Of a DNA stretch of 64,000 nt, positions 54,526 to 64,000 are shown one piece after another (position 1 is the stretch's first letter; each line of letters begins with the position of its first letter). The notes beneath the pieces were generated by a model. That model was not told where the DNA came from, searched no databases, and saw nothing but the letters and a program-made list of their open reading frames with translations. The position numbers and the translations under genes are program-made. The stretch spans positions 149,817-213,816 of the forward strand of contig LN908985.1 in assembly GCA_001486445.1 (NCBI GenBank), in the 5' to 3' direction. The DNA is from Hugonella massiliensis (GTDB taxonomy: Bacteria; Actinomycetota; Coriobacteriia; Coriobacteriales; Eggerthellaceae).

Positions 54526-56070
54526 TTAACCGTTCAGCGATTTGAGCGTGCGGAAGGCTTCGGCCAGGTCGTGCTTCACGAGCTTTTCGCGCAGGGCGTA
54601 CTGCGATTCGTAGAAGCGGTGCACGCTTTCGTGGGGCTCGAAGGCCTGCTTGACGTGCAGGTTGTCTTCCAGGGCGCCGCGGATATCGGCAAGCGCGCCG
54701 GTGGCGTAGGCGGCGAAAAGGCAGTCGGTGCGCACGGCGCTGCCCGCTTCGGCCAGGGTGACGGCGCGGGCGTTGAGCATGTCGGCCTTCATCTGGTTCC
54801 AGATGTCGCTGCGGCTGCCGCCTTCAGTGATCGTGAGGCGGCTCATGTCGACGCCGGCGGAGGCGTAGAGCTTGGCGATTTCCATGTAGTCGTAGCCGAT
54901 CGCTTCGAGCACGGCGTGCCAGAGCAGGGCTTGGTCGGTGTCCATAGTGAGGTTGAGGAAGCAGCCCGTGGCGTCTTGGATGTCGTCGGTGCCGCCGGTG
55001 AGATAGGGCAGGAAGAGGACGCCATTGCTGCCGGGCGCGATGCCTGCGGCGCGGCGGTTGAGCTCGTCGAAGTAGCCTCCGTCTTCCGCTTGGTCGCACA
55101 CGTTGTCCTTGAACCAGCGCAGGGCCAGGCCGCCCGTGCGAATGTATCCCCAGTAGAAGTAGGTGTCGGGCAGGGTGCCGCTGTTGAAGATGAGCCCGTT
55201 GCCCGGCTGCGAGAGTTCGGGGACGATGCCGCTGGTCGACACGCAGAACATGCTGCAGGTGCCCGCCACGTCCACGGCGCTGCCCGGCTGCATCACGCCG
55301 GAGCCGATCATCGACTGCATCGTGTCGCCCGCGCCGCCGCAGATGGGCGTGCCGGCGGCGAAACCGGTGAGACGGGCCATTTCAGGCGTGAGGGCTCCCA
55401 CGATGTCCCAGGGGCGTACGATGCGCGGCATCATGCGTTCGGGGATGCCGAGCAGGCGAAGCTGTTCGGGCGACCAGCGCTTTTCCTGCACGTTGTAGCC
55501 CAGGCCCCAACCGCTCATGGCGCCCCAATCGACGAACATGTCGCTTGCGGGCAGGCCGGCCAGGTGGGCCAAGACGTAAGGGGCGTTGTGCACGAATTTG
55601 GCGCCGCGTTCGCGGAAGCCGGGGACGTGTTCCATGAACCAGCGGGCGAACAGGGCGGGGAACATGCACTTGGCGGCGGGGTTGCCTGTTTCGCGGCCCC
55701 AGATGTCGAGACCCCAGCTGTTGATGAGGGCCTCGTCTTCGGCGGTGCGCGAATCGAGGTAGTTCACGTAAGGGGTGATCGCGTTGCCTTGGGCGTCGAC
55801 GCCCGCGATGCCGCAGATGATGCCGTCTCCCATGATGGCGCGCACGTCGGCGGGGTCGAGGCCCGCTTCGCGCATCTGGGCGCTGCAGTCGGCCATGCCC
55901 TGGATGGTGAGGGCCAGGTATTCGTCGACGTCCATGTCGACCCAACCGGGGTGCGGATAGGTGAGCGTGGTGGGGTGGGCGCTGCTGGCGACGCAGTGCA
56001 TGCGGTCGTCGTGCACGGCGACTTTCACGCTTTGGGTGCCGGCGTCGAAGCCAAGGTAGTAATTGGGCAT
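54526..56070 (-). CDS. FGGY-family carbohydrate kinase (xylulokinase-like)
   Basis: 514 residues from ATG 56070 (GGAGG upstream). FGGY fold: N-terminal phosphate loop YLGFDAGTQSVKVAVHD, GDGIICGIAGVDAQG, GGAGDTMQSMIGSG, second signature VLFLPYLTGG and ITEGGSRSDIWNQMKADML near the C-terminus. Family signatures are clear. Xylulose is the most common substrate for this subgroup, but sugar specificity cannot be settled here. Confidence 0.85.
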   Translation of the reverse strand: MPNYYLGFDAGTQSVKVAVHDDRMHCVASSAHPTTLTYPHPGWVDMDVDEYLALTIQGMADCSAQMREAGLDPADVRAIMGDGIICGIAGVDAQGNAITPYVNYLDSRTAEDEALINSWGLDIWGRETGNPAAKCMFPALFARWFMEHVPGFRERGAKFVHNAPYVLAHLAGLPASDMFVDWGAMSGWGLGYNVQEKRWSPEQLRLLGIPERMMPRIVRPWDIVGALTPEMARLTGFAAGTPICGGAGDTMQSMIGSGVMQPGSAVDVAGTCSMFCVSTSGIVPELSQPGNGLIFNSGTLPDTYFYWGYIRTGGLALRWFKDNVCDQAEDGGYFDELNRRAAGIAPGSNGVLFLPYLTGGTDDIQDATGCFLNLTMDTDQALLWHAVLEAIGYDYMEIAKLYASAGVDMSRLTITEGGSRSDIWNQMKADMLNARAVTLAEAGSAVRTDCLFAAYATGALADIRGALEDNLHVKQAFEPHESVHRFYESQYALREKLVKHDLAEAFRTLKSLNG

Positions 56071-58147: not shown

Positions 58148-58723
58148 ATGGCTGAGGACTTCGGCGACGACTCCGGCGAGAAGATGCTGGACAACTTCTC
58201 GCGGTTCGCCGAGCGAGCCGGCGTGGAGGCCATGAAGGCCCGGGCCGACGCGATATCGCGGGCGTGCGAGCACGCGAAGGCGAGTGCATCGGAGAAGGGC
58301 GCACCCTGGAACGAGCCCACGGAGTGGGCGAAGCTCGACATGCACGAGTTCCGGGAGATCGAGGGCTACGACGAGTTGAAGCCCATCATCGACGCCATGC
58401 TCGACGCGCACGGGGCCGACCACGCTTGGTTCCAAGACGAGAAGGCGGGCAAGGAGTACCTGCTCTTCAGGATCAAGGACGCCCAGGAGGTGTGGGACTC
58501 CTTCGACGAGCTTTCGCGCGAGAGCTCCAAGGCCAAGGAGCGCGCGAGCGAGGCCGCCAAGCGCGACATAGACCGCAGCCGCGCCAAGAGGCGCGACGAG
58601 CGTCCGCTCGACGAGCGCGCGGACGCGGCACGGTGCGCCTCGAAGGAGCTCGAGCGCGAGGGCGGAGCCCGTGCGCGCGAGCATGCGCACGGGCACAGGG
58701 CGCGAAAGGACCGCTCAAGATGA
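58148..58723 (+). CDS. PcfB/DUF3801-like conjugation accessory protein
   Basis: 191 residues from ATG 58148 (a GTG nine bases earlier is possible). Helical N-terminus, then a compact region KPIIDAMLDAHGADHAWFQDEKAGKEYLLFRIKDAQEVWDSFDEL that resembles the PcfB core, then a very basic, repetitive tail (SRAKRRDERPLDERAD...). Its stop overlaps the next start (ATGA), and in related elements pcfB directly precedes the coupling-protein gene. Assignment by position and resemblance. Confidence 0.6.
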   Translation: MAEDFGDDSGEKMLDNFSRFAERAGVEAMKARADAISRACEHAKASASEKGAPWNEPTEWAKLDMHEFREIEGYDELKPIIDAMLDAHGADHAWFQDEKAGKEYLLFRIKDAQEVWDSFDELSRESSKAKERASEAAKRDIDRSRAKRRDERPLDERADAARCASKELEREGGARAREHAHGHRARKDRSR

Positions 58724-60579
58724 GCGGCGCGTACAAGAAGAGCGCGATCATCGCCGCCGCGGCCCTCTCCGCGGCGGCATTCGCCGCAGCGGACGGGTTC
58801 GCGGCATGCCTTGCGTCCCTTCCGGGGAACCCGGTGCTCAACCTCGGCACCGCCGCAGAGGGCTTTCTCCCCTTCATGGCGGAGAACGGGATCCTGAGCA
58901 CGGAGCCCGCCGCCCTGGCCACCGGGCTCGCCGCGACGTGCGCCATATGGGCCGCATGGGCCTGGTCGCTCACACACGGCGCGGGCGACAGGCACGGCGA
59001 GGAGCACGGAAGCGCCCGCTGGGGCACCGTCCGGGAGGGGCGGAAGTTCATGGACACGGCCGACCCCGACAACAACATCATCCTCACGAGGCGCTTCGGC
59101 CTCGCCATGTCGCGCCCCGACCACGACCCCCGCTACGAGCGCAACCGCAACGTGCTCGTGGTCGGCGGCTCGGGGTCCGGCAAGACGCGCAGCGTGCTCG
59201 AGCCGAACATCATGCAGATGAACGCGGACTTCCTGGTGACCGACCCCAAGGGCGAGACGCTGCCGCGCGTGGGCCAGATGCTCGAGGACCACGGCTACGA
59301 CGTGCGCTCGTTCAACACGGTCGACTTCTCCAAGTCGCTCCACTACAACCCGATCGCCTACGTGCGCGACGAGGCGGACATCCTGGAGTTCGTCTCCTGC
59401 CTCATCGAGAACACCACGGGCGACGAGGGGCATGCCGGCGACCCCTTCTGGGAGAAGGCGGAGCGGCTGCTCTACGTCGCGCTCGTCGGCTACCTCGTCG
59501 CGCACTGCCCAGCGGAGGACCGGTCGCTGTCAGGGCTCGTCACTCTGCTCGCGCTCGCGAAGGCCAAGGAGGACGACGAGGACTACCTGAGCCCGCTCGA
59601 CCTGCTCTTCTACGAGATCGAGTCGGGGATGAGCTACGTGGACGCGGGCGAAGCCGACGGCGGGGCCGACATCCTCGCGAGAGGGGCGAAGGGCACGCCA
59701 TCGCGCTTCAGGTGGGTCGAGACCGGCGAGCCCGTCAGGGTCGAGGACGACTTCTGCCTGCTTCACTACAAGATGTTCAAGGACGCCGCCGGCAAGACCA
59801 TGAAGTCGATCCTCGTGTCGTGCAACACCCGCATGGAGCCCTTCGCCATACCGCAGGTGCGCCGCCTCGTCGCCGACGACGAGATGGGGCTCGACCAGCT
59901 GGGCGAGGCAGGCGGGAAGCGGGCCGTGTTCGCGATCATGAGCGACACGAGCCCGCTGTACTCGTTCCTCTTCGCGATCATGATGTGGCAGACCGTGAAC
60001 ATCCTCTGCAGGAAGGCGCTCGTCGAGCACGGGGGCGCACTGCCGCGCCCGGTGAGCATGCTCCTCGACGAGTTCGCCAACATCGGCAAGGTGCCCGACA
60101 TCGAGAAGTCGATCGCGGTGGTGCGCAGCCGCAACATCTCGATAGCGCTGTTCCTGCAGTCCCTCTCGCAGCTCAAGGGCCCCTACAAGGACAACGCGGC
60201 GACGATCGTGGACTGCTGCGACACCCTGCTCTTCCTGGGCGGAAAGTCGTCCGAGACGACCAGGCAGGTGTCGGAGTCCGTCGGCAAGGAGACGCTGTCA
60301 ACCGTCACGTGGAACGAGAGCCGCGGGGCCCAAGCGTCATCCACGAGGAACTGGACCACGCTCGAGCGCGACCTCGTCCAGGCATCCGAGGTGGCCAAGC
60401 TCCCCCGCGACGAGGCGATCGTCCTCATTGCCGGCGCGGACCCCCTGAAAGACGAGAAGTTCCGAATCGAGGGGCACCGCCGCTGGCCCGAGGTCCACCC
60501 GGGGCACAAGGGCAGCATCTACGACGAGCCCTACGACTTCGCAAGACGCATCGAGGACCTGAGGGGAGGGGCGCGGTGA
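58720..60579 (+). CDS. Type IV coupling protein VirD4/TraG/PcfC
   Basis: 619 residues from ATG 58720. Two N-terminal membrane helices (about 7-30 and 62-88), then the AAA+ core: Walker A VVGGSGSGKTRSVLEPN near 150-166, DFLVTDPKGETL, Walker B SMLLDEFANIGKV near 447, and the family stretch ALFLQSLSQLKGPYKDNAATIVDCCDTLLFLGG. It feeds the relaxase-DNA complex to the secretion channel. Relaxase gene not seen. Confidence 0.95.
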   Translation: MSGAYKKSAIIAAAALSAAAFAAADGFAACLASLPGNPVLNLGTAAEGFLPFMAENGILSTEPAALATGLAATCAIWAAWAWSLTHGAGDRHGEEHGSARWGTVREGRKFMDTADPDNNIILTRRFGLAMSRPDHDPRYERNRNVLVVGGSGSGKTRSVLEPNIMQMNADFLVTDPKGETLPRVGQMLEDHGYDVRSFNTVDFSKSLHYNPIAYVRDEADILEFVSCLIENTTGDEGHAGDPFWEKAERLLYVALVGYLVAHCPAEDRSLSGLVTLLALAKAKEDDEDYLSPLDLLFYEIESGMSYVDAGEADGGADILARGAKGTPSRFRWVETGEPVRVEDDFCLLHYKMFKDAAGKTMKSILVSCNTRMEPFAIPQVRRLVADDEMGLDQLGEAGGKRAVFAIMSDTSPLYSFLFAIMMWQTVNILCRKALVEHGGALPRPVSMLLDEFANIGKVPDIEKSIAVVRSRNISIALFLQSLSQLKGPYKDNAATIVDCCDTLLFLGGKSSETTRQVSESVGKETLSTVTWNESRGAQASSTRNWTTLERDLVQASEVAKLPRDEAIVLIAGADPLKDEKFRIEGHRRWPEVHPGHKGSIYDEPYDFARRIEDLRGGAR

Positions 60580-60906: not shown

Positions 60907-61326
60907 ATGCTCAGCGTGACCGTCCACAAGGACATCGGCGAATACAAAGAGAAGGTCGTCGGCAAGATGTCGGCGCGCACGCTCGCGTGCACCGCTGGGG
61001 CGATCGCCGCGTCGTTCGCGGCGGCGGCGATCGCCCACTTTGCCTTCGGCGTACCCGTGTCCGATGCGGCGTTCCCCGTCACCGCGGCGTCGATGCCCTT
61101 CTGGCTGCTGGGCTTCTGGCGGCCGAAGGGCCTTGCCCCCGAGGCGTTCGTGCCGCTGTGGGCCTCGCACGTCCTGGGCGACGGGAAGCTGCCCTACCTG
61201 AACGCGGGCAGGATCCCCGTCTTTCCCGTGGCGTGCCAAAAGCCCGACAGGAAGGCGGGCCGCAAAGCGTGGAAGAGAGGTGCCGAGAAGCGTGATCTGG
61301 AAGAAGCACAAGAAAGCGGGCGATGA
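60907..61326 (+). CDS. PrgI-family conjugal transfer protein (VirB3-like)
   Basis: 139 residues. A short cytoplasmic N-terminus with the PrgI opening SVTVHKDIGEYKEKVVGKMSARTLA, two membrane helices (about 22-72) and a soluble tail rich in Lys/Arg. Eleven bases after the pilin-like gene. PrgI/VirB3 proteins anchor VirB4 at the inner membrane; virB4 overlaps its 3' end by 47 bases. Confidence 0.85.
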   Translation: MLSVTVHKDIGEYKEKVVGKMSARTLACTAGAIAASFAAAAIAHFAFGVPVSDAAFPVTAASMPFWLLGFWRPKGLAPEAFVPLWASHVLGDGKLPYLNAGRIPVFPVACQKPDRKAGRKAWKRGAEKRDLEEAQESGR

Positions 61327-63793
61327 AGGGTCCGCTGAAGGGGCCGTCCGGAGCCGCAAGTCGGTGGAGCGGCTCGCGCGGGAGCGCGAGCAGAAGCTCA
61401 CCGACAAGACCAGGGATCAGCGCAGGCGGCGCCGCGCCGCCAAGGACGTCTACGGGGCCATCGGCTTCGACCTCATGTACGCCGACGGCACCTGCCAGGT
61501 CGAGGAGGGGCTCTTCAGCGAGAGCATCGCATTCGACGACATCAGCTACCAGTCGGCCACCGACGAGACCAAGAAGGCCGTGTTCACGGCCTGGTGCGAC
61601 CTGTTCGACTACTTCGGCGCGGATAGCGCCGTGCAGCTCACCGTCGCGAACACCCCCATTCCCGCCGCCGAAATCGGCAACCGCACGTTCTTCGACGAGG
61701 GGGACGGCGTGACGGCGGCCTACGCCCGGGAGTACAACCGGATCCTCAACGACAAGATGCGCGAGGGCGTCTCCAACCTGACGCGCGAGCGCTATCTCAC
61801 CTTCGCCACCGGGGCGGCCTCGGTGGACGAGGCGGTGCCGAAGCTCGCACGCATGCGCACCGACGCCGAGCAGACGCTCGCGCGGATGCGGAGCGCGTCG
61901 CGCAGGCTCGACGGCAGGGAGCGGCTCGCGGCGATGAACCGTATCCTGCGCCCCGGTGAGCCGTTCCTGTTCGACTGGGAATCGGTCGGGGCCATGTCCA
62001 ACCTCACCGCCAAGGACTTCGTGTGCCCGCCGTCCCTCGACTTCAAGCCGGACGGGATGGCGGGCTGCTACAGAAGCGGCGGCACCTGGTGCCAGGTGCT
62101 CTCCATGCACCGGTTCGGCAGCGAGCTCGAGGACAAGTGCCTGGCGGACATCATCGACCTGCCGATCCCGCTCGTGGCCACCATCCACCTGCAGCCGCTC
62201 GACAAGGCGGCATCGGTCGCATTCGTGAAGAGGCGCATCGCGTGGATGGACAAGGAGATCATCGACGAGCAGATGGCGGCGGTGAAGAAGGGCTACGACT
62301 TCCAGATCCTGCCCTCGGAGCTCAAGTACTCCAAGGAGGAGGCCGAGGACCTGCTCGACCACCTGCAGAACAAGAACCAGAGGCTCTACTCCTACACTGG
62401 CCTCGTCTACACCTACGCGGACACCTACGACGAGCTGCAGCGCCGGGTCATGCGCATCGCGTCGACCGCGCGGCAGAACTCGATCGAGCTCGACTCGCTC
62501 GACTACCGCCAGCGCGAGGGCATGAACTCGACGATACCCGCGGGCGAGAACCACGTCGAGGTCTCGCGGATGATGACGACGGCGCAGGTGGCCATCCAGC
62601 TGCCCTTCGCTACCCAGGAGCTCATGCAGGAGGGCGGCGGCTACTACGGGCAGAACAAGCAGAGCAGCAACCTCGTGCTCTGCAACCGCAAGCTGCTGGC
62701 GAGTCCCATGGGGTTCGTGGCGGGAAAGCCCGGGTCCGGCAAGTCGTTCTCGGTCAAGCGCGAGATCGTGAACACGGTGCTCGCGTACCCCGACGACGAG
62801 ATCATCGTGCTCGACCCAGCCGGCGAGTACAGCCCGGTCGTGGAGGGGTGCGGCGGCGAGTGCATCCGCTTCGCGCCGGACTCGGACACGCACCTCAACC
62901 CCTTCGACCTCTCCGACGTGGCCCACCAGTCCACGGCGGCCCAGATGGCGTTCAAGATAGACGCCTTCCTCGCGCTGTCGTCGGCGACGATGGCAGAGGG
63001 CAGCCAGGGGCTCCCCGAGGCGGACAAGTCGATCATCGGGCGCTGCGTCGAGCTCGCCTACGATCGGTGCGCGGACGAGGGGCGCCTGCCGCTTTTGGGC
63101 GACTTCCACCGACTGCTCGCCGCCCAGCCCGAGGCCGAGGCCCAGAGGATCGCCCTTCGCTACGAGCGCTACGTGAGGGGCGCGCTGTCCTTCTTCAACC
63201 ACGAGAGCAACGTCACCTTCGAGAAGCGCATCACCAACGTGGACTTCAAGGACCTCTCCGAGAACATGCGGGCGTTCGGCATCATCGCGGTGCTGGAGTC
63301 CGTGCGCAACCGCATGTACCGAAACTACGAGCGCGGCGTGACGACCTGGCTCTACATCGACGAGGTGCAGAGCCTCTTCGGGCACCCGGCCATCATCAGC
63401 TACTTCTCGAAGTTCTGGGCGGAAGGCCGCAAGTTCAACCTCATCTGCACGGGCATCAGCCAGAACAGCGTCTACATGCTCGAGCACGAGGAGGCGCGCA
63501 ACATGGTGCTCAACTCGGACTTCATCCTGCTGCACAAGCAGTCGCCGCTCGACCGCAAGGCGTGGACGGAGCTCCTGGACCTCTCCGCCCAGGAGGCGGA
63601 CTACATCGCCGAGTCGGTTCGCGCCGGCGAGGGGCTGCTCGTCGCCGGCGGCGCCCGCGTGCCCATAAAGGACGACTTCCCCAAGGGGGCGCTCTACGAC
63701 CTGTTCAACACCAAGCCCGAGGAGATCGCCGCGCTCAAGCGCGCGCGGCGCTTCACGTTTGGGGGCGGGGCCCGAGAGGAGCCTCTCGATTGA
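61280..63793 (+). CDS. VirB4/TraE-type conjugative ATPase
   Basis: 837 residues from GTG 61280, overlapping prgI by 47 bases. Walker A FVAGKPGSGKSFSVKREI near 481, Walker B VTTWLYIDEVQSLFGHP near 690, and QNSVYMLEHEEARNMVLNSDFILLHKQ typical of VirB4 C-termini. Basic N-terminus (KKHKKAGD...). It energises pilus assembly and substrate transfer. The gene is complete and stops before the library artefact. Confidence 0.95.
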   Translation: MPRSVIWKKHKKAGDEGSAEGAVRSRKSVERLAREREQKLTDKTRDQRRRRRAAKDVYGAIGFDLMYADGTCQVEEGLFSESIAFDDISYQSATDETKKAVFTAWCDLFDYFGADSAVQLTVANTPIPAAEIGNRTFFDEGDGVTAAYAREYNRILNDKMREGVSNLTRERYLTFATGAASVDEAVPKLARMRTDAEQTLARMRSASRRLDGRERLAAMNRILRPGEPFLFDWESVGAMSNLTAKDFVCPPSLDFKPDGMAGCYRSGGTWCQVLSMHRFGSELEDKCLADIIDLPIPLVATIHLQPLDKAASVAFVKRRIAWMDKEIIDEQMAAVKKGYDFQILPSELKYSKEEAEDLLDHLQNKNQRLYSYTGLVYTYADTYDELQRRVMRIASTARQNSIELDSLDYRQREGMNSTIPAGENHVEVSRMMTTAQVAIQLPFATQELMQEGGGYYGQNKQSSNLVLCNRKLLASPMGFVAGKPGSGKSFSVKREIVNTVLAYPDDEIIVLDPAGEYSPVVEGCGGECIRFAPDSDTHLNPFDLSDVAHQSTAAQMAFKIDAFLALSSATMAEGSQGLPEADKSIIGRCVELAYDRCADEGRLPLLGDFHRLLAAQPEAEAQRIALRYERYVRGALSFFNHESNVTFEKRITNVDFKDLSENMRAFGIIAVLESVRNRMYRNYERGVTTWLYIDEVQSLFGHPAIISYFSKFWAEGRKFNLICTGISQNSVYMLEHEEARNMVLNSDFILLHKQSPLDRKAWTELLDLSAQEADYIAESVRAGEGLLVAGGARVPIKDDFPKGALYDLFNTKPEEIAALKRARRFTFGGGAREEPLD

Positions 63794-63926
63794 GCGGAGG
63801 GCAAGAGAGCATAGAGGCCCCAGCGGGTGCGAAGGTCGTCGGGAAGGCGTCCGAGGCGGCGTCCACGGAGCGGACCGATGCCGTCACCGGCGGCATCGCG
63901 CGGACCGTGCAGGGCGTCGCCAAGGA
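63790..63926 (+). CDS. Start of the next ICE gene, truncated by a library artefact
   Basis: Open frame from TTG 63790 overlapping the virB4 stop (residues SGGQESIEAPAGAKVV...). It is rich in Gly/Ala/Thr, and is broken at 63926 where adapter sequence begins. Which gene it is cannot be judged; transfer proteins of this position are often large membrane or cell-wall hydrolase genes. Confidence 0.35.
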
Positions 63927-63963
63927 TGTCTCTTATACACATCTAGATGTGTATAAGAGACAG
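63927..63963. other. Tn5/Nextera mosaic-end palindrome (sequencing artefact)
   Basis: The 19-base mosaic end AGATGTGTATAAGAGACAG (63945-63963) is preceded by 18 of its 19 complementary bases (63927-63944). This palindrome is the transposase adapter, not chromosomal. Everything after 63963 comes from a different fragment. Confidence 0.97.
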
Positions 63964-64000
63964 ACGTGGAGAAGCGGGGTCTGGAAGAAGCAGAAGAAAG

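Follow-up and report, generated by a model that had tools for sequence, protein, structure and literature searches.

The DNA analysed here, referred to as the window, is a stretch of 64,000 nucleotides from Hugonella massiliensis, a member of the Eggerthellaceae. Base 64000 is the final base of contig C8 (213,816 bases), and the false stretch described below is therefore the end of that contig. The following features were assigned, with all coordinates given in the window:

58264..60579, + strand: open frame with a type IV coupling protein (VirD4/TraG), domains at 58822-60576
60907..61326, + strand: PrgI-family conjugation gene, 139 amino acids, upstream of virB4
61278..61316, + strand: overlap between the final part of the PrgI-family gene and the virB4 start, the probable genomic source of the tail by ungapped and gapped alignments
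61280..63793, + strand: virB4-type ATPase gene, 837 amino acids in a single open frame; no other virB4 was found in the genome
63790..63925, + strand: first part of the lysozyme/NlpC-P60 gene, the conjugation gene that follows virB4, cut by the junction; C-terminal part on the reverse strand of contig C2, starting from the end of that contig
63926..63963, no strand: very probable junction adapter of a Nextera Mate Pair library, made up of two head-to-head Tn5 mosaic ends (37/38 bases), one of 17 such palindromes in the genome
63964..64000, + strand: tail, very probably a noisy reread of the virB4 start from the other end of a circularised molecule (29/32 to 61285-61316, same strand, upstream)

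The VirB4 product scored above the Pfam cut-off for DUF87/HerA and below the cut-off for TraC_F_IV, and many of its closest relatives were labelled Eggerthellaceae. Proteins encoded after virB4 in relatives (lysozyme/NlpC-P60, an unnamed protein and a VirB6-like protein) matched contig C2 (3388 bases) on the reverse strand; the VirB6-like match exceeded 24 bits but fell below the Pfam cut-off. The gap between C8 and C2 was 499-732 bp by 10 of 13 relatives, giving an estimate of about 0.6 kb, after the remaining three (L059, L064 and L074) were dropped for values of 54 bp or less than zero that came from misplaced matches. The element most likely continues on contig C2, the contig having broken inside the lysozyme/NlpC-P60 gene. 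Positions 1-164 of C2 contain a junction adapter, on the same contig as the NlpC-P60 and VirB6-like genes.

A Tn5 mosaic-end palindrome had been reported by the first-pass annotation at 63927-63963. It is present, and the full unit is 38 bp and begins at 63926: the left half (63926-63944) departs from the 19-bp mosaic end at a single base, 63926, where A replaces C, whereas the right half (63945-63963) matches it exactly. No other mosaic end was found in the 64-kb window with up to 5 mismatches allowed per half. The contaminant peptides named in the same annotation were recovered as SYTHLDVYKRQ and LLYTSRCV in open frames spanning the junction; a literature search for them returned, as far as the partial texts extend, only papers on unrelated subjects. 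The 38-bp head-to-head unit is one that we take to be the junction sequence of the Nextera Mate Pair kit, in whose design the junctions are mosaic ends and the outer adapters are TruSeq. The steps of a mate-pair library include junction adapters, circularisation and biotin capture, as described in the available part of PMC6298255.

The genome consists of nine contigs with a total of 2,090,771 bases, the smallest of which has 850 bases; this contig, C1, is all N. Exact 19-base mosaic ends were found 10 times in the genome, in every case in head-to-head pairs. Palindromes numbered 13 when mismatches were allowed and 17 after a search with a 22-base core in a single 2.09-Mb genome, and each of the 17, once written out, agreed with the 38-bp unit at 34-38 positions; reversed control patterns gave no match in these searches. 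When a 32-base core was searched across the family, 1 of 137 genomes matched, that of H. massiliensis itself, and none of the 136 others. Contig C6 (128 kb) carries 6 of the 17 junction adapters (at 55146, 60420, 60587, 70337, 101619 and 112435), so its gene calls are especially unsafe. Two TruSeq adapters were assembled into C9, the largest contig, one within C9:189180-189271, where it begins 41 bases after a degraded palindrome, and one at C9:217996; these read-throughs are long and include poly-A, and the second contains the index GCCAAT. The earlier view that the end of the window is a transposase-adapter artefact with a false join, and that genes called across it are false, is upheld. The junction stretch is most likely an ordinary library artefact with no real biological feature.

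In a circularised molecule, the sequence to the left of the junction is the end of the molecule and the sequence to the right is its start, on the same strand. Fourteen of the 17 junctions were tested for this geometry using 40, 80 and 120 bases of each flank against 10 kb on each side where available, on both strands, with 20 shuffles as the null; the other three (C6:70337, C9:1189492 and C9:1192181) were written out and stood outside the flank test. A clear second copy of a flank was found at six of the 14 junctions:

C5:34334: right flank copy upstream, 86/111 identical, 2.2 kb
C9:189180: right flank copy upstream, first 41/41 identical and then adapter, 3.1 kb
C9:1159328: right flank copy upstream, 47/49 identical, 2.2 kb
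Window junction: right flank copy upstream, 29/32 identical from base 6, 2.6 kb
C6:55146: left flank copy downstream, 116/120 identical, 4.1 kb
C6:60587: left flank copy downstream, 53/59 identical, 4.1 kb

All six copies were on the same strand, with the right flank upstream or the left flank downstream at 2.2-4.2 kb, giving molecules of about 2.2, 2.2, 2.6, 3.1, 4.1 and 4.1 kb. If four arrangements are equally likely, the mate-pair arrangement would occur in six of six cases by chance about once in 4,000. At the other eight junctions no copy was clear within 10 kb, which counts against the mate-pair reading.

Several weaker or ambiguous matches were treated as follows. The match of C6:60420 at width 120 is a segment shared with C6:60587 and was counted once. 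The right flank of C9:283937 is weakly matched 9.3 kb upstream (55/76; score 28 versus a best null of 23 at width 80, and 28 versus 25 at width 120), and this match was not counted. Also left uncounted was the left flank of the window junction, which scored 25 versus a best null of 21 at width 80 but 28 versus 33 at width 120. In the left flank of C6:101619, 65 bases recur exactly 2.5 kb upstream; they do not extend up to the junction and belong to a plain 126-base repeat. The flank of the C2 junction (126 bases) is identical to C9:1127033-1127158, and in the 20 kb around that site no match was found to the VirB4, PrgI or VirD4 proteins of the element or to the post-virB4 proteins of five relatives. 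A chimeric circle or some other placement would have to be assumed for the C2 junction, which counts against the mate-pair reading.

The tail following the window junction (63964-64000) is identical to the virB4 start (61280-61316) at 30 of 37 bases, the figure given in the first-pass annotation. From its base 6 on, the tail matches 61285-61316 at 29 of 32 bases, and the second-best site in the window, on either strand, reaches 20 of 32, which excludes a chance match. The source lies 2.64 kb upstream on the same strand. A gapped alignment places the beginning of the tail at 61278 and requires a 2-base deletion as well as 4 mismatches; unless this 2-base gap is allowed, the first five bases mismatch 61280-61284, which counts against a reread of the same molecule. 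The three mismatches in the core of the tail (T>G, A>G and C>G) are all towards G.

The adapter copies served as an error yardstick because their true sequence is known. Fourteen copies contained 29 errors in 532 bases, of which 27 were towards G or C. The copied flanks vary in noise, from 41/41 down to 86/111 identical. In the copied flank on C5 the bias was weaker than in the adapters, with 14 of 19 substitutions towards G or C and 5 of 19 towards A or T; pooled substitution counts are inflated by the C9:189180 alignment, which enters the TruSeq adapter past its 41 bases. The core mismatches of the tail resemble the errors inside the adapter copies, and no second gene is needed to account for them.

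The palindrome and the 17 copies of it in the genome, together with the read-through into TruSeq adapters, the geometry at six junctions, the match of the tail and the presence of a single virB4, point to an untrimmed Nextera Mate Pair junction adapter followed by a reread of the same virB4 molecule, a reading to which we assign a probability of about 95%. A genomic molecule of about 2.65 kb, with its ends near 61278 and 63925, would have been cut and tagged by Tn5 transposase, with a mosaic end added at each side, and its circularisation would have brought the two mosaic ends head to head. After shearing and sequencing of the circle, a read that left virB4 behind and crossed the junction would come back into the same molecule at its beginning. 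Probably lacking good reads at this place, the assembler would then have extended the contig end along such a read, keeping 37 low-quality bases. That the tail stems from a single poor read, that good reads were scarce and how exactly the assembler proceeded are what we infer.

The published genome of H. massiliensis AT8 was sequenced on a MiSeq at 2x251 from a Nextera Mate Pair library, the only library that section 2.7 of PMC5552949 mentions, with molecules of 1.5-11 kb and no size selection; trimmed and untrimmed data were used for assembly, GapCloser was run and scaffolds under 800 bp were removed, giving nine scaffolds, 2,091,845 bp and 63.46% G+C according to the same part of the paper. 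The genome analysed here, with 63.5% G+C in the 283 kb sampled, is in all likelihood that of strain AT8. The molecule sizes of 2.2-4.2 kb at the six junctions fall inside the published range. The same text states that reads were trimmed before assembly, which counts against a surviving junction adapter, and names no mate-pair junction trimmer in the part available (PMC5552949). The junctions inside contigs would be accounted for if gaps had been filled with reads from which junctions had not been removed.

The first-pass annotation had assigned the tail to a related conjugative element of the same sample and had seen in it a hint that more than one such element was present. Under this explanation a closely related second element would be joined to the first, with an adapter dimer or a chimeric circle as the link, which we regard as very improbable. 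The tail does differ from 61280-61316 at 7 of 37 bases and its in-frame translation, TWRSGVWKKQKK, is plausible for a variant, and chimeric joins may occur, given that the C2 junction connects to a distant part of C9. Against this, the genome has one virB4 both by DNA and by protein (one match at E 1e-50 or better), and at the DNA level nothing of virB4 was recovered beyond the complete gene and 32 bases of the tail. A 35-mer of the tail, with up to 3 mismatches, was found in none of the 137 other genomes in a set of 138 family genomes that included our own, a result that excludes a near-exact match only, since the search also missed the virB4 start of this genome. The last 32 bases of the tail had no exact match in any stretch of the species-genome collection. 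The tail was also compared with 107 related virB4 loci (29 and 78 from two relative searches, some genomes being in both), of which 103 reach the virB4 start; the comparison was run on the + strand and then on both strands, with the same outcome. The best locus reached 21/32, which is background level, versus 29/32 for the virB4 of the window. Because several of these loci encode proteins 77-84% identical to the VirB4 of the window, such background-level matches indicate that the stretch at the virB4 start changes fast between elements, and the 29/32 match therefore points to the window's own virB4. The estimate of genome contamination was 0.1, and the position, strand and 2.64-kb distance of the tail are those of a self-circle and are expected for the same virB4 molecule; a second element is not supported. 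A near-identical second element carried by a minor variant in the culture, with 37 of its virB4 bases caught by a chimeric circle, is similarly hard to credit.

Ordinary Nextera paired-end adapter read-through, fusing two unrelated tagmentation fragments, uses the same 19-bp mosaic end. The first-pass annotation had postulated a join of two tagmentation fragments. In ordinary libraries other sequence continues beyond the mosaic end, according to the available part of PMC11575248, and continuations of this kind from the outer adapters were not found in the stretches of the genome examined. All 10 exact mosaic ends lie in head-to-head pairs, and the outer adapters present are TruSeq adapters. 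Unrelated fragments would not yield the same geometry at six of six junctions; that geometry is the one of single circularised molecules, and two independent fragments are accordingly not supported. The naming of the Nextera Mate Pair kit in section 2.7 of PMC5552949 likewise argues against ordinary read-through, which we consider very improbable.

A natural origin, with the palindrome serving in regulation or as the end of a Tn5-like transposon, for example, has the inverted-repeat form as its sole support and was rejected with negligible probability, since 17 scattered copies occur in one genome and none in 136 other family genomes, and since the exact 38-bp palindrome is sporadic elsewhere (7 viral-contig stretches, 5 of 72,556 plasmids and 0 of 50,697 phages). 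The plasmid records with the exact palindrome are NZ_CP032357.1, NZ_MT039157.1, NZ_KY978628.1, NZ_MF589339.1 and NZ_MF918372.1. In the seven IMG/VR stretches (L195-L201), the palindrome lies 10 bases or fewer from an end of the stretch in 4 of 7.

The mate-pair reading carries a warning about data quality: 17 junction adapters and two TruSeq adapters are present in this assembly, most of them inside contigs, and some junction adapters adjoin short false duplicates of neighbouring sequence. Genes, duplications and apparent second elements called at any of these adapters are suspect. The 38-bp palindrome is easily searched for, and an exact copy is also present in some viral and plasmid records.

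VirD4, PrgI, VirB4 and NlpC-P60 genes are shared between the window's element and conjugative elements of other Eggerthellaceae and Coriobacteriia; here the order is coupling protein, PrgI, VirB4, lysozyme/NlpC-P60 and VirB6-like, with the continuation on contig C2. The element lies outside the artefact, and a second copy of it was not found. Compared with the Nextera Mate Pair junction adapter, the palindrome shares the two 19-bp mosaic ends placed head to head, with TruSeq adapters present, and its flanks, where a copy is clear, are the two ends of one molecule of a few kb. Most copies in this genome carry errors, and nothing essential differs.
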